From Macrobrachium rosenbergii (taxonomy: Eukaryota; Arthropoda; Malacostraca; Decapoda; Palaemonidae): a stretch of 64,000 nucleotides of DNA. The notes under the pieces were generated by a model. It did not search any database, had not been told where the DNA came from, and saw only the letters and a list, made by a program, of their open reading frames with translations. Shown here in pieces: positions 1 through 19,518 of this stretch (within the stretch, counting starts at the first letter, position 1; each line of letters starts with the position of its first letter). The position numbers were made by a program, and so were the translations under genes. The stretch is from the NCBI RefSeq assembly GCF_040412425.1, contig NC_089781.1, positions 51,102,727 to 51,166,726 of the forward strand, written 5' to 3'.

Positions 1-1988
1 GTGCCAAAATGAAGGAAATTGATTGAATATTACTAGGCTGTAAGTTGTTTAGCTTACAATTGCATTTTTGAACCATTTCGATCGAGTTAAAGTTGACCGA
101 AGGTTGATTTTTTTTCTATTTATCGTTATTTCGATGTAAATATAAAAAAATTGTGAAGAGCTAAAGGAATGATATATTTTTTGTTGTATTCTACATGAAA
201 TTGCGCACATTTTGATGTATAACACTTTATGTAACGAATAATATGAAACGGCGAAAAAATTACGGCAAGCTGACGCAAGAAATGACAGGATTTTCAGCGG
301 ATCCTCGCGCGCGGAGCGAAGGAGATTTTTTTTAAAAAAATTCACCAAAAATCTACATATTGTGCTAGAGACTTTCCGTTTGTTGCAAAATGAAGGTAAA
401 TGATTGATTGTTACTCGAATGTAATAATTATGGCTTACGGATGCGTTTTTCGATCATTTCCGTTGAGTCAAAGTTGACCGAATGTTAAAATTTTGTCAGT
501 TATCGTGATTTCGGCGAAAATATTAAAACTGTGAAGAGCTAAAGGAATGACATATTTTTGTTGTATTCTACATGAAATTGCGCACATTTTGATGTATAAC
601 ACTTTATGTAACGAATAATATGAAACGGCAGAAAAAATTACGGCAAGCTGACGCAAGAAATGACAGGATTTTCAGCGAGTCCGCGCGTGCGGAGCGAAGG
701 AAATTTTTTCAAAAATTCACCAAAATCTAAATATGTGGTAGAGACTTTCCGTTTGTTTGCAAAATGAAGGTAAATGATTGATTGTTACTCGAATGTAATA
801 ATTATGGCTTACGGATGCGTTTTTCGATCATTTCAATCAAAGTTGACCGAATGTTAAAATTTTGTCAGTTATCGTGATTTCGGCGAAAATATTAAAAAAC
901 TGTGAAGAGCTAAAGGAATGATATATTTTTTGTTATATTCTACATGAAATTGCGCACATTTTGATGTATAACACTTTATGTCACGAATAATATGAAACGG
1001 CGAAAAAATTACGGCAAGCTGACGCAAGAAATGACAGGATTTTCAGCGAGTACGCGCGGCGGAAAGGAGATTTTTTCAAAAATTCACCAAAAATCTACAT
1101 ATTGTGCTAGAGACTTTCCGTTTGTTGCAAAATGAAGGTAAATGATTGATTGTTACTCGAATGTAATAATTATGGCTTACGGATGCGTTTTCGATCATTT
1201 CCGTTGAGTCAAAGTTGACCGAATGTTAAAATTTTGTCAGTTATCGTTATTTCGGCGAAAATATTAAAAACTGTGAAGAGCTAAAGGAATGACATATTTT
1301 GTTATATTCTACATGAAATTGCGCACATTTTGATGTATAACACTTTATGTCACGAATAATATGAAACGGGCGAAAAAATTACGGCAAGCTGACGCAAGAA
1401 ATGACAGGATTTTCAGCGAGTTTGGCGAATGCAAGCGGGAGCGAAGGAAAAATTTTTTTTTCAAAAATTCACCAAAAATCTAAATAATGTGGTAGAGACT
1501 TTCCGTTTGTTGCAAAATGAAGGTAAATGATTGATTGTTACTCGAATGTAATAATTATGGCTTACGGATGCGTTTTCGATCATTTCGGTTGAGTCAAAGT
1601 TGACCGAATGTTACAATTTTGTCAGTTATCGTGATTTCGGCGAAAATATTAAAAAACTGTGAAGAGCTAAAGGAATGACATATTTTTTTGTATTCTACAT
1701 GAAATTGCGCACATTTTGATGTATAACACTTTATGTAACGAATAATATGAAACGGCGAAAAATTACGGCAAGCTGACGCAAGAAATGACAGGATTTTCAG
1801 CGGATCCGGCGTGCGGAGCGAAGAAATTTTTTTTCAAAAATTCACCAAAAATCTAAATAATGTGCTAGAGACTTTCCGTTTGTTGCAAAATGAAGGTAAA
1901 TGATTGATTGTTACTCGAATGTAATAATTATGGCTTACGGATGCGTTTTTATCATTTCGGTCGAGTCAAAGTTGACCGAATGTTAAAA
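1..1988. repeat. Tandem satellite array, about 370-386 bp unit
   Basis: The landmark GTGAAGAGCTAAAGGAATGA recurs at 153, 531, 902, 1273 and 1659, giving spacings of 378, 371, 371 and 386 bp. Units carry the same blocks in order, including a GACGCAAGAAATGACAGG block, a GC-rich variable spot after TTTCAGCG and a run of T. Differences are mostly single-base indels in A or T runs plus a variable GC-rich stretch. The array starts before the window and stops abruptly at about 1988. Short minus-strand ORFs recur once per unit only because the unit recurs; I do not regard them as genes. No function can be read from the sequence. Confidence 0.95.
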
Positions 1989-2530
1989 TTCACTTTAGTT
2001 GCTGGGTCCTTCTCTAGCATCCCAGTCTAAAACTCGCCTCATGCTCACTTCCGACAGGCAGCATGCGCCTTTCACGGTCCTGACGCCTTTGTGACATATC
2101 TACAAACGTCCTGTTGCAGCACGAATACGCAAACACTCGCCAAAGTTCTGCAAAAACACGTCTGTGTCAAAATATCGCTCCCGCAAGGTCCGATGCTGAT
2201 GCTATCTGGCGTGAGTAGGAGGGAATTGCGCGCATCAATTTTGGCGTCTGGGTGACGCTCAAAACAACACAACACCTGGATCCGTGAACTCCCAGCATCC
2301 GCCAAGATGCGTGATTTGAAATCTTCCGCAAACTAGGCCTATAATTATTTTTCCGCGAATATTTAAAAAAAGCATTTTCAGTCGACGTTTGCAACGTCCA
2401 CTTGGCATTCGACAGACAATTTTTGACGACGTTTAAAACGTCCAACAGGCGTTTAAGGGTTAAAGGCTCTCTGAAGGTAAAGCAGCTGTAGTGAATCCAT
2501 TAGTGGCGAAGCCAAAACCACTGTGTTTAC
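1989..2530. other. Unassigned stretch between satellite and LTR fragment
   Basis: No gene with recognisable domains is visible on either strand. Two short overlapping minus-strand ORFs (2072-2445) show no known motif. If the LTR junction at 2531-2553 is read correctly, this could be the 5' internal part of a retroelement running leftwards on the minus strand, but no gag or pol similarity can be seen. Confidence 0.4.
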
Positions 2531-2960
2531 CGTCACTCCTCGGGTCACCAGTTGTAAGGACAAAAGGGTCAAACTGGGTATTAACTGATTTATTTACCTG
2601 GGCTTAGGTATACATGGCAGAGTGCGGATGGAAATGTAGTGCCCGACCTCTGATTGCCGTGACCCGCACTCTGAGCAGTTTGTGTTTGTTGACAGTCAAA
2701 CAAATGGCAATTTTAAGAGACATAACATACATACTGTGATAAAATATTTATTCATGGAAAGGCCAGGAAATTCTACATATGAGCGGAAAGGCCAGGAAAT
2801 TCTACATATGAATATTTATATGAGATTCTTGTCAAGTTAATAAGTGTGATGCATGAACGTGATTGATGCGAAATGAAGAGACGTCTGACGTCTTTACAGT
2901 ACTACTGTACAACTGCAGGGTTAGGTGTCTATGATGATTTACAGGTAATAGGGCACTGCA
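2531..2960 (-). repeat. Diverged LTR fragment with adjacent primer-binding-like site
   Basis: From 2553 (TGTAAGGAC) this stretch aligns with the reverse complement of the 637-bp solo LTR at 41106-41742. Shared blocks include GGCCAGGAAATTCTACATATG, a GTTTGTGTTTGTTGACAG-like block and a GAGACGT-TGACGTCTT block. Read on the minus strand, the LTR ends at 2553 and is followed by CTGGTGACCCGAGGAGTG, which resembles the internal junction of Gypsy-type elements. A 26-bp segment (GGAAAGGCCAGGAAATTC and flank) is tandemly duplicated at about 2758-2811. The far end fades out near 2960. Confidence 0.6.
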
Positions 2961-4224
2961 TTTGTGAAAGCAGTTGTGTTTTTGTGTCGTGTATTGTGTA
3001 TTTGCATGTGGTGTTTTTGGGGTCCGTATTGTGGTGTCCCTGTTATGGTACTGAGGTGCTCAAATAAGAAGGGATCACTTGGATTGCAAGAGGCATGTGG
3101 TGCAGACATTATTGGTGGTTGATTGTTATTATGTGTTTGGTGTTAAGTGTTGCATCGTCCACTGTAGATTAAGGAGCTCCTTGTTTATATTTCTAACCTG
3201 TTGTGTTAAATTTCCCAATTGGGACCAAACTCCGTGTAAATTTCTTGGTGTCCTGCAGTGTTTGTTGGACCTCACTTTCCAACTGAATTAAATCAGTGTA
3301 AGAATCATCCATACCGGTACTTGCAGCCATCTTATTGTACTTTACATAAGTTACTTAAATGAATTTCTAAATTAATGTATAAATATCACCAGGCACTCCT
3401 TTATAATATCAATAATTAATATGTATGCCAAGTATAATAATTATACAAAGAGGCTAAAGATCAAAACTTTTAGAAAAAAAATAAAAATTTTAACCTGAAA
3501 AAATATGTGACCTACAAATTAGGCACCGTGAATTCAGTGGGACTCGTAGTATTTAACTAAAGATCCCACACAGCTGCTACCATATGTCACGGATGATTTT
3601 CCCGTAACATTAATCATCCATAACTAGATGAATGAATTTTCATGCACCATATTTCTTCGTAGCTGGACCGGAGATTTTTACATCTTCATCATGATGTATT
3701 TGGTACTGATACATGGTGAGGATGAGCTGGGGGGAAGGGGAAGTGATGATTACCAAAAATCTTCTGCTTTATCCTATACTTGGGTGGTGTACCCCTAAAA
3801 TTTAGTTGCCATTTTGAGGATATTTTGAGACCACATGTCTCAGTTCTGGATGAAGAAAATTCCTTTGTTATTTCGTGTCTTCTTTATTCCATTAGACTTT
3901 CCTACAAACGTCAATCCCTGTCTCCAGGATTGGGTCCCTCAATGGGGACATATCTTTAAGTATAGAAGAAATTCGTGATAAATGGGAAGCATGGCATCCG
4001 TGCGAGTCTTTACGTTGTATAACAGTGTTGCCAAAAAATAGGAATGACTCAGGCATAGAGAGAATAAAAACAAAACAAGGGGTGGCTACACTGCTATACA
4101 TTCGTTGATAAATAAAATTTTCCTTTTCGTGGTTTTATAATTAATCTTACAGTAATAATTTAAAGATATTAGAGAAGGATGATGAATCAGTTCGTAAATA
4201 ACCAATATTACTTAGATGAGTGAC
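2961..4224. other. No recognisable gene
   Basis: AT-rich sequence with short ORFs only (up to about 70 aa), none with a recognisable domain. No repeat matching another part of the window was seen. Confidence 0.5.
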
Positions 4225-6220
4225 TTTCTACCGTCACACTATTCTTTCTGGCAAACCATGCGCTGCAAAGATTTGCATGAGTGATTTTATAGTTGCAACC
4301 GATGATGTTGTTTGCATTGGTATAACTTCTGGCCACTTACTTTATGCATCTACTAATATCAAATATAAGTATCCTAAAAATGGACCTGCAAAATCTATAT
4401 GCACACGTTGCCACGGGTATCTGGGTAATTTCCATAGGTGCATTCTTGTTTGTTTAGGATTATTTTGTTGCAATGCACAATTCATACACTTCTTAACCAA
4501 AATTTCAATGTCCCTATCAACACCTGGCCACCAAACATAAGTTCTAGTAATTGACTTGGTCTCACTATACCTTGGTGGTCTGCATGCATTTCTGATAAAA
4601 CCCTACTTCTTAGTGCATTTGGAATCACTAATCTTGATCCTCTCAGAATACAACCTTGTGTGACACTCAATCCATTCCAAATCTCTTTGTATGGTTTGCA
4701 GTTGCCATCATATGCACAAATATCTCTGCCAGTTATTAGACTCTAATACTTTTGTGAGTACTGGGTCTTTCTTTGTACCTTGTGCTATTTCCTTACCTGT
4801 AATAGGTAAATTATATGCAGAAATTAAAATAATAATTTCATATGTTCTTCTGGTGCTTTGTCTACAGGCAATCTTGACAAAGCGTCTGCATGACCCATCA
4901 TTGATGTTGGTCTACACTCTATATTATATAGTCATATGCAGCTAATATTATTTTCCAACGTTGTAGTCTTGCAGCTACTAACGAAGGTAAGCTTGCTTTT
5001 GGACCTAAAATCATCAACAATGGTTTCTGGTCTGAAACTAACGTGAACTTTTTCCTACCATAGAGATACATATGGAACTTTTTTACTCATACACTAGTGC
5101 TGATGCTTCTCTTTCAATTTGTGAGTACAGTAGTTCCTTTCTCCTTTTTTAATAATCTAGAGCAAAAGCAATAGGTTTTCCTGTACCATTTGGCATTACA
5201 TGTGCTAGTACTGCACCTAAACCTAAGCTTGAGGCGTCACCAACCAACTTCACTGGCAAATCCATTTGATAATGTACTACTAGAATGTGGGTGAAGTCAC
5301 TTCTGCTTTGATTCTTTCTGGGGATTTTTGACATTCCTTTGTCCAATTCCATTCAACATCCTTGTTCTGCAAATTATATAATGGGTGTGCAATGGTTGCT
5401 AAGTTCTGAATGAAATTTCCATAAAACATTACTAAACCTATAAATGACTGCAATTCCTTTACATTTTCTGGTACCTTTGCTGACTGTACTGCATTTACCT
5501 TATCTTCTGTCTTGTGAATGCCTTTACCATTTACGATAAAGCCCAAATACTCTACTGAGTCAGCTTCTAAAAATACTCTACTGAGTCAACTTCTTAAATA
5601 CATTTACTCTCGTTGACTTTGATATTATGTTCCTTCAGTTTCTTTAGAACTGCACGTAGCTCTTCGTTTGTGAGTCGGTAGAGCTGCGGACTAGCACTCG
5701 CTGGGCCGGAGTTCAATTCCCTGGCAGGCTGATGAAGAGTTAGAGGAATTTATTTCTGGTGATAGAAATTCATTTCTCACTATAATGTGGTTCGGATTCC
5801 ACAATAAGCTGTAGGTCCCATTGCTAAGTAAACAGTTGGTTCTTAGCTACGTAAAATAAGTCTAATCCTTCGGGCCAGCCCTAGGAGAGCTGTTAATCAG
5901 CCCAGTGGTCTGGTAAAACTAAGGTATACTTAACTTTAGAACTGCAAGTAACCTTTCTCCATGCTCTTTCTTGTTTTTACCAGCTATTGGTATGTCATCA
6001 ATAAAAATGAATACTCCTGACATACCTGCAAATATTTTGTCCATTGTTTGCTGCCATATAGCTGAACTGCTAGCGACTCCATATGGAAGTCTTTTTGGAT
6101 GATACAGCCCTAAATGTGTGTTTACAGTACATAACTTTTGGGAATTTTCATCCATGGAAAGCTCCTGAAATGCCTGTCTTAGATCTGCCTTAGAAAATAT
6201 AGAGCATCCTGACAATTTCT
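4225..6220 (-). pseudogene. Mag-like Ty3/Gypsy pol remnant (RT, RNase H, integrase)
   Basis: Read on the minus strand from 6215 down, the order is reverse transcriptase (SIFSKADLRQAF, then FIDDIPIAG with both catalytic Asp), RT thumb (ELQSFIGLVMFYGNFI), RNase H start (KLVGDASSLGLGAVLAH), the RNase H/integrase junction (ADALSRLPVD near 4870), the integrase zinc region (SEMHADHQGIV, then CMNCALQQNN) and the integrase core (VHIDFAGPF near 4400). The order RT-RH-IN is the normal Gypsy one. The frame is broken by several indels and stops, and by a SINE at 5661-5934. The 5' side is cut at about 6220, where sequence unlike RT begins, and gag is absent. The 3' side is lost near 4225, inside the integrase core before its catalytic Glu. 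This is a dead copy. Confidence 0.85.
5661..5934 (+). mobile_element. tRNA-derived SINE, copy 1, with 16-bp target duplication
   Basis: The head resembles a tRNA gene: GAGTCGGTAGAGCTGCGGAC fits an A-box region and GGAGTTCAATTCCC fits a B box. The body contains a block shared with copy 2 (23481-23760), including GAGGAATTTATTTCTGGTGA, a TAGGTCCC...TTGCTA...GTTCTTAGC core and a TATACTTAACTTT end. Flanking direct repeats TTTAGAACTGCACGTA (5645-5660) and TTTAGAACTGCAAGTA (5935-5950) mark the insertion, which splits the Mag-like RT. The two copies differ by scattered substitutions. Pol III transcription and dependence on a LINE partner are general knowledge of SINEs, not visible here. Confidence 0.85.
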
Positions 6221-6414
6221 CTACTTGGCGGGACTGGACAGTCTAGTTCAAGTTTGAGAAGCTTGACTTCACACTTGAGCAGAACACTTAGTGGCCTGTC
6301 ATGCTGATATTTCGGTCTCAGTTCCAAGTCGTCCTCATTCACCTGTTGCCCTTGGGGAACCGTGCCTTTAAGAACAGCCTTCCCTTTGTTCCCTTCAGTG
6401 GAGATTTCAGGAAT

Positions 6415-6540
6415 TCTTGTCTCCAATAGGGAACTCCCTATTTCTTTCCATTCCTTCAGGAAGGAAATGAATTAAGGATTCTTGTCTCCGATAAGGGACT
6501 CCCTATTCCTTTCCATTCCTTTTGGGAAGGAAAGGAATTG
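6415..6540. repeat. Tandem duplication of about 65 bp with hairpin units
   Basis: Two imperfect copies share ATTCTTGTCTCC, GGGACTCCCTAT and CTTTCCATTCCTT blocks. Each unit carries a small inverted repeat (TTTCCATTCCTT paired with AAGGAA). It lies at the junction between the truncated Gypsy pol and the DIRS fragment. Confidence 0.6.
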
Positions 6541-12881: not shown

Positions 12882-14349
12882 AGGTTAAAGGAATACGATG
12901 CAGTTATACAGAACCAATTTGAAGATGGAGTAATTGAACGTATTGCAGATCTTCCCTCATTTCTTAGAGAAAATCCAGATGTATCATTTCTAGCTCATAA
13001 TGCCGTGTTCCGAAATAACTCTAACACGACGAAGTGTAGGGTTGTCTTTCTATCGAATTTAAGTGAGAGGAAAAATGAGAATGTCTTTCCCATAATCAGT
13101 GTTCCATGGCGGGAGCTAATTTGAATAATAAAATGCAGATTTCAACACTACTACTAAGGTTTGACAAGTATTTGCTGACTTATGATTTGAAAAAGCCTTT
13201 TACAGCTTTTTCTTAGAAGAGGACACGAGAAAGTTACTTTTTCTATGGTTTAATGGTATTTCTAAGAACGATTTCTCAATTGTTGGCTATCGTTTCCGAC
13301 AAGTGCCTTATGGAATGAGATATTCTCCATTTTTGTTAATGATAGCTCTCTATTACATATTGATCCATAATGTAACTGATGATGATGATGAAGAGACTCT
13401 GAGTATAAAAGGTGTTTGTATAACCTTTCTTACATGGATAACTTAGCCATAACTTCAAATGCGGATAATGATTTGCTTAAGGCATTAAATGTTTCTGTAT
13501 CGACGTTCCGAGAATTTGGATTCGAATTACAAGAGTTTTGTACGAATTCTGTACCCTTAAGAGAACAATTAAATAAGTTTGAACACTGCACTGAATCATA
13601 ATCAAAGCTTTTGGCCTAATTTGGAATACAGAGAATGATACGATTAAAACTCGTAAACTTGAATTAAACCCTAAAGCTAATACAAAAGGTTAATTTTAAG
13701 TACTATTTATTCCAATTTATGATCCTTTTGGGTTTTCAATACCAGTTTTAAACAGAAGCAAATTGTTTATGCATTCCTTGCAGAATGACAAGGATATTGG
13801 ATGGGATACGCCGTTAAGCAGCGAGCTGATGAAAGAATGGTCGAAGATTGCCAGACAGGTTAACAAGAGCTCAGAAATTGTACTACCTCGTTCTGTCGGT
13901 AATCGTTGTGACGAGTACAATTTGTTGGTCTATACGGACGCAAGTAAAGAATTGTTAGGCTGTGCTTTATATTTGGTGGCTGTCAATTCAGCAGACACCA
14001 AGCTGATTTTGGCAAAGAATTCTGTGCTTTGTAAGAAATTAAGAACAAAGTCTATTCCTGTACTGGAATTGATATCTGTACATTTGGGAGTAAGGACGGC
14101 CGTAGATGTAGCTGAACAGCTAATGAATGCTGTTGTTCCTATTCGGATTCGTAATATTTATTGCTTCACAGATTCTATGATTGTTCTAAGTTGGATTAAG
14201 TCTAAGGAGTTTGAGTTTGGCAAAATAGATAGGAAGCAAGTGATGGTTAACAATAGGCTAAATGATATGTCGAATCTTTGTTCTAAGCGAACAGTGATTT
14301 TCGACCATATAGGTGGTGATGAGAACCCTAGTGATTGTCTTACTCGGTG
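12882..14349 (+). pseudogene. BEL1 reverse transcriptase and RNase H
   Basis: The RT starts YDAVIQNQFEDGVIERI, then NTTKCRVVFLSN, a FRQVPYGMRYSPFLL block and the catalytic motif YMDNL near 13435. RNase H follows (13763-14349) with YTDASKELLGCALY, CFTDSMIVLSWI and GGDENPSDCLTR, the last being a BEL hallmark. The RT motif has Asn at its second acidic position; BEL2 in this window has Asn there too, so it may be a clade feature. At least three indels break the frame. The RNase H end is cut by the transposon at 14352 and continues at 17672. Confidence 0.85.
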
Positions 14350-14351
14350 TA

Positions 14352-14513
14352 GTCAGGCAGCTAAACCCCATTTTTTGGTGATTTGGGGACTTTCCGGACA
14401 AAAGCATGAAACTTGGTACAAATGTTGTTTGATACCTTAGCTACAAAATTGTCCCCGGAACCAACTCATATGACCCCATCTTGGCGGCCATATTGGAATT
14501 TCAAGATGGCTGC
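14352..14513 (+). repeat. Left terminal inverted repeat of the TIR transposon
   Basis: About 160 bp pairing with the reverse complement of 17516-17669. Conserved blocks lie at both the outer end (GTCAGGCAG, TTGGGGAC) and the inner end (GGCGGCCATATTG, AAGATGGCTGCCA); the middle is more diverged. Confidence 0.88.
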
Positions 14514-14548
14514 CATCAATATATCTATACAAGCTTACAAAGGGTTAT

Positions 14549-16330
14549 ATGTTACAAAATCATGCAAACCATGAAGAGGGGCTTTCTGCACAAAAAAGAT
14601 TTAAGGATCACGTTTCAAACCTTCATGATGTGTTCTGTGATATGGGAAATCCTTTCTGTGATAGTGGTAATGAGTTGCTGGTCTTAGATACAAGAAATGT
14701 CATGGATGATTCTGTGATAACTACGGTAAGAACAATAACAACATTAGGAACTGAGCAATATAACCAGTACTACAAAGATGTTGTCACAGACTGTAAAAAT
14801 CAATTCACACCCTGATCAAAAAGAACAAACTAGCTCTCTTCAGATGCCCCAGGCCGAAATTGCAAAAGCAGAAAGTCGCGGGAATGGATCTCCTGAAGAA
14901 TGACGTTTCTCTCTTCTCTCGATTGTATATTGTCATGCAACATAGAGACAGTGACATGGATGCATTCTTTCAACATGAGAATCACCCTTTTTCCACCTTC
15001 TTTGTCTAATGGTGGAAAACTGCGGTTTGGAAAAAAGTCTGACATCCAAAACATAATCAAGAGTGAGGATAAGGCTAATGCACCAGATAATTTTGATGCA
15101 AAGTTTCTTGATGGAGCTGCTATCGTGCATATGCTACCTACTGCAAGTGTTGCCACCTTTTAAGGAGTATGCTGAATGCATCTTCGTTCCTTACATCTTG
15201 AAACAGCTAGAAACATGCCAGCGAATTGACATTGTTTGGGACACTTATATCACAAATAGTCTAAAAAGAGTCCACCAGAGAAAAGCGAGGCACAGGGATC
15301 AGAAGAAAAGTTGAAGAAAGGAACAAAATACCATTAAACTGGCAAGACTTCCTCAAAGACTCCAACAACAAGCAAGAACTCTTTGCTCTCTTATCTCATA
15401 AGGTTGCTAAAATGACAGTTCCTGACGAAAAAGAAGTTGTCATAACTTCAGGACAAGATGCCATAATTGTTGGTACTAGTCATGTAATCCCAAGATGCGA
15501 CCACGAGGAAGCAGATACAAGGCTGCTAGTTCATATTCAGGATGCAATGAAAGAAGGTCACAAGAATTGTTTGATCAGGACTGTGGATAGTGATGTCCTT
15601 GTCATTTTGATTGGAAAATTTCATCATCTAATGTCAATAAGACCTGATTTGAATATCTGGGTTGGTTTTGGCACAGGAGAAACTTTACCTACCATCATAT
15701 CAACACAATTTGTGCCTCTTTAGGCGAAAAAGATGTATATCCCTTCCAGTATTTCACTGTTTTACAGGATGTGATACAACTTCATCCTTCTATGGAAGAG
15801 GTAAAACTACAGCATGGACAGCATGGTACCATTATCCTGATGTAACTAAGGCATTTATGTTCGTGGCACAAAACCCTTTTACAGATCTTGACAAGGAAAG
15901 TTATCACTTCAAACTTCTAGAGCGTTATACAGTTGTCCTCTATGACAAGAGCAGTGATGTTGAATGGGTAGACGAAGCAAGAAAAATATTGTATTGTCAG
16001 AAAGAAAAACTATGGAAAATATTCCTCCTACTCAAGATGCTCTGCTCCAGCACACCCTGAAGGGTCATCTATCAAGCAGGAATATGGTCAACTTGTGACA
16101 AATGGGAACAGAATCTCCCATCTGCTGAAGGCTGGGGGTGGACTTTCAACAGAGAATCACAGGCATGGACACCAAACTGGATCACAAGACCTATAGCATC
16201 CAAAGCATGCAGTGAGCTGATTAAATGTGGTTGCAAGAGTAAAAGTGGATGGCACACGTTGTGCTTGTAAGAAGGCAAAATGGAAATGTACAGACCTGTG
16301 TAGCTGCAACTGTATAGTTTGATCTGTTTT
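14549..16330 (+). pseudogene. Transposon protein with FEN1/XPG-like motifs and Cys-rich tail
   Basis: The translated trace runs over several frames, joined by about five frameshifts, and would be roughly 590 aa. In order: LLVLDTRNVMDDSVI; LDGAAIVHMLPT (15110); IDIVWDTYITNSLK (15230); CDHEEADTRLLVH (15495); RTVDSDVLVIL (15585); FTGCDTTSSFYGRGKTTAW (15760); then WGWTF and a cysteine cluster near 16220-16318 (CGCKSK, RCACKKAKWKC, LCSCNC). The acidic series (DGAA; EEAD; DSD; GCD) follows the metal-binding pattern of FEN1/XPG nucleases (EAEA; DxD; GCD), so a structure-specific nuclease fold is inferred. The tail resembles CXC (tesmin/TSO1-like) domains, which bind DNA. I recall similar uncharacterised proteins in other invertebrates and fish; I could not search. 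Its role as transposase or cargo is unknown. Confidence 0.75.
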
Positions 16331-16429
16331 ATGAAGATCTTCTCTTGGAAAGAGTGATTTTTTTTTTTGTATATCTCAAATCTTTCATATCTAAGTATCA
16401 TTGATTGAATTTTACAAGCTTTTCACCAT

Positions 16430-17500
16430 GATAATCATCTTGTTAATTTTTACCAAGGGCATGCAAACATATTTAGTTCCATTTTTGTAATATCTCTGCC
16501 TTCTTCAACTTCCTCTCAATGATGCTAGTTTATTGATAAAAAAGAAAATATGATATGTTTCAGAAAATATGTATTTTCTCGGTTGAACTAGAAGCAAAAC
16601 AAGGTATTTTGATAATTATTGCTTTGTATTTGTATTGATTTAATGTCCTTGCTATACACTGAATGTTTTGCAATACGTCTAGGTTTTTGTGGTATTATTT
16701 AATACCATAATGTGTGCTATGCTAAATCTTATGTGATATGTGGAAAATAGTCTCATATATATAAATTTTTTTTTTACAAAAGGCCTACAAGCAAAATTGG
16801 GTCTATTTTTGTGATATCTTAGCTTTATAAGTTTTTCATTTATAGCTCTAGTCTGTAGCTAGATTTTACTGATAAAGAAAATTCTATTTATGTTTGAAGA
16901 AAAAATGGAGTATTTATTCAGTTCTTCTAGATATATAACAATTATGCTGTAAAATTTGTATTGTTATGCATTTATATATCCTTGCTAATAGAATGTTGCT
17001 AGCAATAAGCCTGTTTTTGGTCAGATATTTTTTATTTTATCTTCTACATACGCTTTATTTTATGTGATATATGGTGTACAGTTTCATTTATTTTACAATA
17101 GGCCTACAAGAGGAGAAAGGTCTGCTCTCATGATATTTTATCTTTATAAATGTTCTAACTATGATTCTAATCTTTTGTGATCAGAATTTTTCTGATTATA
17201 AAAAAAAAAAAATTATTTATTTTTGTCTAGAAGCAAAACCAGGTATATATTTTGATACTAATTATGCTTTAAAATTGTATTGCTATAAGATATGTAACCT
17301 TATTCTATAAAGAACGATATTTGTGTACCATACCCATTTTTTCCTTAAGATTAATTTGGGATTTTTACTGCATATGCTTAATTTCATATATCATCATATT
17401 AGAAATGCATCTGATCATAGTTTAAGTGGTTTCACTGATTTTACCAGCCACAAAACATATGGATTGATATAAAACATGCCTATCAAATGTTGCATTATCT
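16430..17500. repeat. Diverged internal repeats of about 320 bp in the transposon
   Basis: Three imperfect, very AT-rich units start near 16450, 16780 and 17100. Shared blocks in each include (ACA)GGCCTACAAG or a variant, a TAGAAGC(AAAACAAGG) or related block, a TAATTATGCT...AAATTTGTATTG block and a TATTTTATGTGATAT(A)TGG block. No coding potential is seen. They fill the space between the gene and the right TIR. Confidence 0.65.
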
Positions 17501-17515
17501 ATTCTATTTTTTTCA

Positions 17516-17669
17516 GTGGCAGCCATCTTGAAAATCAATATGGCGGCCAAATAAGGGTTTGATTGATTGGTTCCGGGGATAAAATTGTTTCTATATGCAA
17601 TATCTACAAGTCTGCAAAGTTTGATGCTTTTGTCCAGTATGTCCCCAACAACTTGGTTATCTGCCTGAC
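17516..17669 (-). repeat. Right terminal inverted repeat of the TIR transposon
   Basis: Reverse-complement partner of 14352-14513, ending ATCTGCCTGAC followed by TA. Confidence 0.88.
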
Positions 17670-19518
17670 TAGTGTGTTTCAGAGAAAATGCTTCGTAGCA
17701 CGCTCTTTTTAACAGGTCCAAAATTTCTAGATTCTCCATCAGAGTGCAGAGTGATTGTTCCTCATCCCGGTGCAAAGCCGCCTTCCGTGAGTTGCTCTGT
17801 TAGGACAAATTTCATTTTGAATTCTGAACCACTTATACCATTAAACAAGTTTCGTCCTTTAGTAAAGCGGTCAAGGTTTTGAGTATTGTCTTCCTCTTTG
17901 TTACTAAGTTGAAACAAAGGTTAAAACTGACTAAGAATATACCAGAGAATACCTCTGACGAACAGAATGAAACTGCTCGTAGCACCATTCACCTTTTAGT
18001 ACATGCACAAAAGGCTGCCTTTCCCCAAGTTTATAATACGCTGGCTACAGGTAATTTTTCAGAACCCCTTATATCACAGTTGAATTTATTTCGTGATGAA
18101 AGTGGGCTTATTAGGGTACAAAGTAAGTTAAGTAAATTAAAAGCTTCTTATGATGAGAGGTGTCCGATGCTATTGGGAAAAAATTGCCCTGTGGCTAGAA
18201 GTATAATTTGGGATATCCATGTAAAACTGCGACACGCTGGAATTTACAAAACTTTAGGTTTACTCAGGAAAGGGTTTTGGATTATTAATGGCTTTGTGGT
18301 TGTAAAGAAGGTTTTAAAAGGCTATTTGATATGTAAAAGGTTGAATGCAAGAACTGTCAAAATTAATCAAAATGCATATAGAGATTTCAGAATAAACCCA
18401 GAGGCTATTCCGTTTAGGAATATTTGCATCGACCATTGTGGACCTTTCTTGGTTAAGGACAGAAACAAACAAAACTATAAGGTATATGTGCTGGTCATAT
18501 CCTGTTTTTGGTCTAGAGCAATTAATCTGGTTGTATGCAGGTTGATTGATAAAACTCCTTTCTTAGGGCATTACAAATGCATATTTTTGAGTACGGTTTC
18601 CCTTCCTTAATAGTTAGTGATAATGGAAGCCCAATAGTGGCGGGAGTAGAGGAAACTATCTGTTATCTAAATGATTGAGAGACCATTGACTTCTTAAGAT
18701 CGCATAATATTAAGTCTTTAAAATTTCATCCATTCCCTGCTAATGCACATAAATTAGGTGGGTTTGTTGAAACTATGGTTAAGCAAGTAAAAAGGATAGT
18801 TACTTCGAGCATTCGAAATAACATTTTGGATTATGATGATTTTCAATTCTTGATTGCTGAGGCTAAAATGCTCGTAAATAAAAGACCAGTCGCCTTCAGA
18901 AATGCTCTAAATAAATTAGATTTTGACAACAGCGTGCCTGTCCCTTTGACTCCAGAGATGATAGTGAAGGGGTATGAAGTACCTTGTGTGAGTATAATTC
19001 CTGAGCTTAATACTTCAGATCAGGACGACTCTTGGGGTGTCTCTGATGATATATTCGGCAATAATCAAGAGGTAGTTTTATCTCGTTTTGGTAAACTTAT
19101 GAAAGTGAAAGCTAACTTGGAAAAAATCTATTAGGGCGAATTTACTGCTACGTTGTTCAGTCAAGCAACGGATAGAAAAAATAGGTATGGTAAGAAATCT
19201 CATACTGAATTAAGGGTAGGGGATTTAGTGAGTATAAAAACAGGTTTTATAAAGCCTTTTGCTTACCCGCTAGGTGTCATCGTACAAATTGAAAAGAATG
19301 ACCTGGATGAAGTAACAAGCGCTAGTGTACGTAAATCCAACGGAGAAATTGTAAGACGACACGTTGACAACTTGATATTCCTAACAGATACTTCCATCAA
19401 CGTTGACAGTAACTCTGTTTCTCCTGAATTTGTTCCTGAAACCAGTACAGCTGAGAGATCAGCTGCTCGTAAGTGTCGAGAACTGAACAAGGCACTAATT
19501 GAGCAACACAAGGTTTAA
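17670..19518 (+). pseudogene. BEL1 integrase
   Basis: The trace resumes after the transposon with a BEL linker (LTGPKFLDSPSECRVIVPHP). The integrase has a zinc-binding region (HVKLRHAGIYKTL, later LICKRLN, with Gly where the first Cys is expected) and a core with the three catalytic acids: IDHCGPF (18430), VSDNGSP (18615) and GGFVETMVKQVK (18762). The C-terminal part (19153-19518) includes LRVGDLVSIKTG and YPLGVIVQIEK, as in the DUF5641-like end of BEL integrases. Breaks are at 18608-18680 and a TAG at 19132-19134. It stops just before a poly-T tract and the 3' LTR. Confidence 0.85.

Follow-up and report, generated by a model that had tools for sequence, protein, structure and literature searches.

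Can a DNA transposon whose only recognisable gene resembles a FEN1/XPG-type nuclease have been moved by that nuclease? The question is raised by an element at positions 14350-17671 of the window, i.e., the whole 64,000-bp stretch of Macrobrachium rosenbergii DNA analysed here, which a preliminary description had presented as carrying such a nuclease and "not a DDE transposase". The present analysis leads, with considerable confidence, to another answer: the element is a non-autonomous, internally deleted DNA transposon, likely of the AcademX group, and its full-length relatives are predicted to join a DDE transposase to a FEN1/XPG-type nuclease. The apparent nuclease-only transposon would therefore belong to a known group and be shortened by loss of the front half of its gene.

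Full-length relatives and the deletion in the window copy

In the full-length relatives, one long gene is predicted to encode a DDE transposase, then a nuclease of FEN1/XPG type, and finally a cysteine-rich tail. A 6,538-bp copy, L025, has the same ends as the window copy and both gene halves, encoding residues 6-842 of the homologue P0128 upstream of the nuclease. The window copy consists of positions 1-224 of L025 joined to positions 3439-6538, with positions 225-3438 missing; the left 224 bp (14350..14573, forward strand) are identical to L025 and the remainder is 98.6% identical. At the deletion joint (14570..14573), the two sides overlap by 4 bp. The protein was thereby lost up to approximately residue 907, including the putative DDE triad D461, D637 and E854 (P0128 numbering). 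The preliminary description had named a transposase in longer copies with the same ends as grounds for abandoning its view, and L025, with its predicted DDE half, is such a copy; together with the longer proteins, it overturns the earlier denial of a DDE transposase for the family.

What remains of the gene in the window copy is the C-terminal part, residues 907-1489 of proteins of ~1,490 amino acids, located at 14552..16313 (forward strand) by tblastn with P0121, P0128, P0158, P0001 and P0006. The remnant runs through several frames, being broken several times as in other copies, and its stretch 14552-14573 falls partly in the retained 5' piece. As described earlier, it is the single recognisable gene and has an ordered series of acidic motifs, which were found to be kept across 38 long homologues. 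In P0128 numbering, these are the Asp of DGAA, with which the acidic series of the predicted nuclease site begins (15110..15112; D1088, 38/38), DxxxD (15228..15242; D1127 and D1131, 38/38 each), EEAD (15505..15516; E1219, E1220 and D1222 in 36, 38 and 38), DxD (15586..15594; D1246 and D1248 in 37 and 38) and the Asp of GCDT (15773..15775; D1309, 38/38), all on the forward strand.

The assignment to the FEN1/XPG type agrees with fold prediction, as the AlphaFold model of a homologue matches EXO1, FEN1 and XPG; predicted fold and ordered acidic site both point to this superfamily, although identity is 11-16% in the structural alignments listed. Unlike those nucleases, the one described here has a transposase joined in front of it and the cysteine-rich tail after it. 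The first half of the ~1,490-residue proteins has a predicted fold like that of P-element, Hermes and RAG1 transposases (VIA-align), and the putative D461, D637 and E854 are present in all 38 long homologues. Each of these 38 is also a single polypeptide made up of both halves, and neither half has lost its catalytic positions. Judging by record names, proteins with the HEEADTR motif occur in sponges, cnidarians, arthropods, molluscs, echinoderms and fish.

Borders, target duplications and copies in the genome

The transposon was inserted into a BEL/Pao element, which was recognised by Pfam on both flanks through Peptidase_A17 on the left (E 3e-31) and Integrase_H2C2 (4.5e-6) and DUF5641 (7.6e-5) on the right. 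Two readings of the ends were considered, a TA duplication around GTCAGGCAG and a GTG duplication around TAGTCAGGCAG. Under the GTG model the joined BEL/Pao frame continues open, from NPSDCLTRC into VSEKMLRSTLFLTGPKFL, whereas under the TA model the rejoined frame hits stops; GTG was preferred because it alone leaves the interrupted frame open. The TA is part of the inverted repeat and the target duplication is GTG, at 14347..14349 and 17672..17674, as the frame and the family copies both indicate. The borders are 14350-17671, with ends TAGTCAGGCAG...CTGCCTGACTA; imperfect inverted repeats align over 14350-14515 (forward strand) and 17517-17671 (reverse strand), and the outermost 11 bp, TAGTCAGGCAG, are perfect. 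The earlier claim of exact borders thus stands for inverted repeats bounding a BEL/Pao insertion, with its coordinates corrected to these, and the claim that the BEL pol frame closes on removal of the element holds under the GTG borders and not under the TA borders. A TA or TAG duplication, as proposed at first, is ruled out by this frame and by the duplications across family copies.

The genome (3.18 Gb, 78 contigs) was searched with a 152-residue piece of the nuclease, and the best 150 of 2,535 candidates were considered. Twenty stretches around high-ranking nuclease matches were examined, and 16 belonged to the window's family; four more diverged ones (L033, L037, L038 and L040) were left out of the border count. 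Both ends were readable in 13 of the 16 copies, or 14 with the window copy, as L023, L031 and L036 were one end short in the BLAST match. An exact 3-bp duplication was present at the TAG/CTA borders in 12 of these 14, with twelve different triplets (GTG, TAT, TTA, ACC, CTT, AAG, TAC, TAA, CTC, GAC, GTC and AGT); L027 lacked a duplication, and L034 lies in a CT repeat and has one base of its right end altered. Two copies found through their ends, L044 and L045, also had 3-bp duplications, giving 14 of 16 for the family. When 14 copies were screened for duplications of 2-9 bp, none exceeding 3 bp was seen. Aligning copies at their borders, the check that had been proposed for the transposon, revealed common ends around independent copies at varied 3-bp targets, not at TA or TAG.

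Besides L025 and the window copy, the other 12 two-ended copies sampled by nuclease match were internally deleted, with left breaks at 375-714 and right breaks at 2167-4060. The 13 deleted copies, the window copy included, have 11 different joints between them (that of L024, L034 and L035 is the same to within a base), and 12 of the 13 joints had overlaps of 1-8 bp, some of which are expected by chance. That these copies keep the nuclease is uninformative because they were picked by nuclease match. The end-based searches covered the best 40 of 60 candidates for the left end, with 23 matches of at least 87%, the window copy included, plus weaker ones, and the best 40 of 63 for the right end. 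Among the former, the left repeat was 97-100% identical at 20 more places and 87-95% identical at three. These searches recovered paired ends of the transposon at C14:12185898-12192358 and C41:69017636-69022217. In L045, positions 1-3085 and thereby the transposase half are retained and 3086-5728, the nuclease, are lost, and L044 is rearranged with its nuclease mostly lost; L045 is a mirror image of the deletion copies of the window type. Selection for nuclease retention in the deleted copies, at which the nuclease-based sample had hinted, was considered and rejected, as the end-based search gave copies without the nuclease and the count by codon position was unclear. For the more diverged copies L033, L037, L038, L040 and L041, the ends were sought and not found, and a search for relatives in viral and prokaryote contigs gave none.

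A second family with different ends shares the transposase-nuclease layout in this genome. Its copies L042 (6,004 bp) and L043 (6,022 bp) begin TAGTGCAGCAG, are 39-40% identical to P0128 and are flanked by the 3-bp duplications ATT and CTA (2/2). In both, the DDE positions are conserved, as is every nuclease position apart from D1127, where each has His. The two copies are 99.2% identical to each other, which suggests recent amplification. Dozens of equally scoring matches to this family (~39% identical to the window's piece) were observed among the best 150 candidates.

Comparison of 13 copies with L025 gave 185 distinct length differences and 108 substitutions. Runs of at least 4 equal bases were touched by 63 of 132 one-base differences, against ~17% of random places, a pattern that suggests assembly error in part. 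Because length differences cluster at homopolymers, the individual frame breaks are not all claimed to be real, and frame breaks in this assembly should be read with care.

Other features of the window copy and of the family's ends were observed in passing. The 3' region of the window copy (16314..17516, forward strand) has no recognised coding sequence; its diverged direct repeats, spaced ~320-330 bp apart, lie at 16718-17276. At C7:43245922-43257800, 13 right-end matches on one strand, ~940-1,035 bp apart, apparently form a tandem array built from the element's right end, and a further three right-end matches, spaced by ~1-2 kb, occur at C55:21908818-21912076.

Relation to known transposons and alternative explanations

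The nuclease of AcademX was reportedly described as XPG type by Kojima in 2020. The family was filed as likely AcademX because a DDE transposase, a nuclease and a 3-bp duplication fit the described features. The duplication was found in 14 of 16 copies and in both copies of the second family, the DDE transposase by fold prediction and residues in the homologues and L025, though not in the window copy, which differs from AcademX in lacking that half, and the nuclease by fold prediction and residues. Terminal inverted repeats and a full length of ~6-6.5 kb complete the resemblance. In PMC10045372, AcademX duplications are 3 or 4 bp and those of AcademH 9 or 10 bp, in relation to the encoded nuclease and helicase. 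AcademH belongs to the same superfamily and has a DDE transposase plus an extra enzyme, but with a helicase in place of the nuclease. In the literature searched, HEEADTR and DUF6589 were not mentioned, and Academ, XPG and transposase never appeared together.

Other groups fit less well. Tc1/mariner was rejected, as twelve different triplets were found instead of a TA duplication. P, hAT (Hermes) and RAG1/Transib transposases resemble the predicted fold of the first half, but P and hAT elements duplicate 8 bp and Transib 5 bp, and with nothing longer than 3 bp in 14 copies, the P element and hAT were set aside. Kolobok elements duplicate TTAA. KolobokE and KolobokP likewise combine a DDE transposase and a nuclease in one element (PMC9587614). 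Their nuclease folds are others.

Several results weigh against our interpretation. Support for the DDE fold comes from conserved residues and VIA-align scores with a large root-mean-square deviation (7.7 A over 353 residues), and Foldseek gave no significant match for the transposase half (best E 0.29, to RAG1). Neither half had a relative in profile searches of PDB sequences, which yielded one chance-like match; Pfam gave nothing above cut-off on the homologues (DUF6589 was sub-threshold in 4 of 7) and no match on six window pieces. An unbroken full-length frame was not found in any copy of this genome, and L025 itself is interrupted, its longest stop-to-stop stretch being 395 codons. Academ was compared by description only, which, with the lack of a Pfam model above cut-off for either half, would favour a separate superfamily of DDE transposase-XPG nuclease elements, similar to Academ yet distinct. 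We regard this as improbable, since the described features of AcademX (nuclease, DDE transposase and 3-4 bp duplication) are all matched, and the mean of 5,565 bp given for Academ elements in bivalves in PMC10294476 is near the 6.0-6.5 kb found here.

It was also considered whether the nuclease is cargo, i.e., a host-derived gene captured by an unrelated transposon, as nuclease genes within transposons can be. This is very unlikely, given that the halves form one polypeptide with both catalytic sets kept in every long homologue and that two families with different ends share the layout. The window copy and the 12 other deleted copies keep the nuclease without most or all of the DDE half and yet lie between duplications, as would be expected if the FEN1/XPG-like protein alone moved the element and the DDE half were dispensable; the choice of copies by nuclease match, however, forced that retention. 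The deleted copies have broken nuclease frames, and substitutions among copies, which number 13/12/20 over the three codon positions and 11/14/14 in the 3' non-coding part, give no clear sign of an excess at third positions or of selection. The DDE residues are universally kept in the long homologues. A nuclease-only transposon is ruled out for the family by the full-length L025, which has both halves, and by L045, which lacks the nuclease; we give the earlier proposal of nuclease-driven movement next to no probability.

Proposed mechanism and meaning

Under the preferred reading as an internally deleted transposase-nuclease element, the window copy would have been moved in trans by the transposase of a full-length copy binding the common ends, and its own nuclease remnant was probably not needed. 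Whether it preceded or followed this move, the deletion would have formed at a joint with a short overlap, in the manner of other cut-and-paste families. When the protein is complete, its DDE half would cut the ends and insert them at target sites staggered by 3 bp. The other strand would fall to the nuclease half, which may make the second-strand cut or cleave 5' flaps, either at the ends or in the repair gaps. More tentatively, and with less than even probability, the XPG nuclease may be a necessary partner of the DDE transposase, two metal-dependent nucleases in one chain splitting the strands of each end. The nuclease would then make the second-strand cut or trim it, and the 3-bp stagger would follow from this.

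Altogether, these observations explain the widespread, uncharacterised HEEADTR proteins of animals as the rear part of a transposase-nuclease, and show how a DDE transposon can come to resemble a nuclease-only one through internal deletion. They also raise the question of why a DDE transposase would need a FEN1/XPG-type nuclease, with both active sites kept in all the long homologues; if the nuclease is indeed its partner, the protein would be a transposase with a built-in flap endonuclease.
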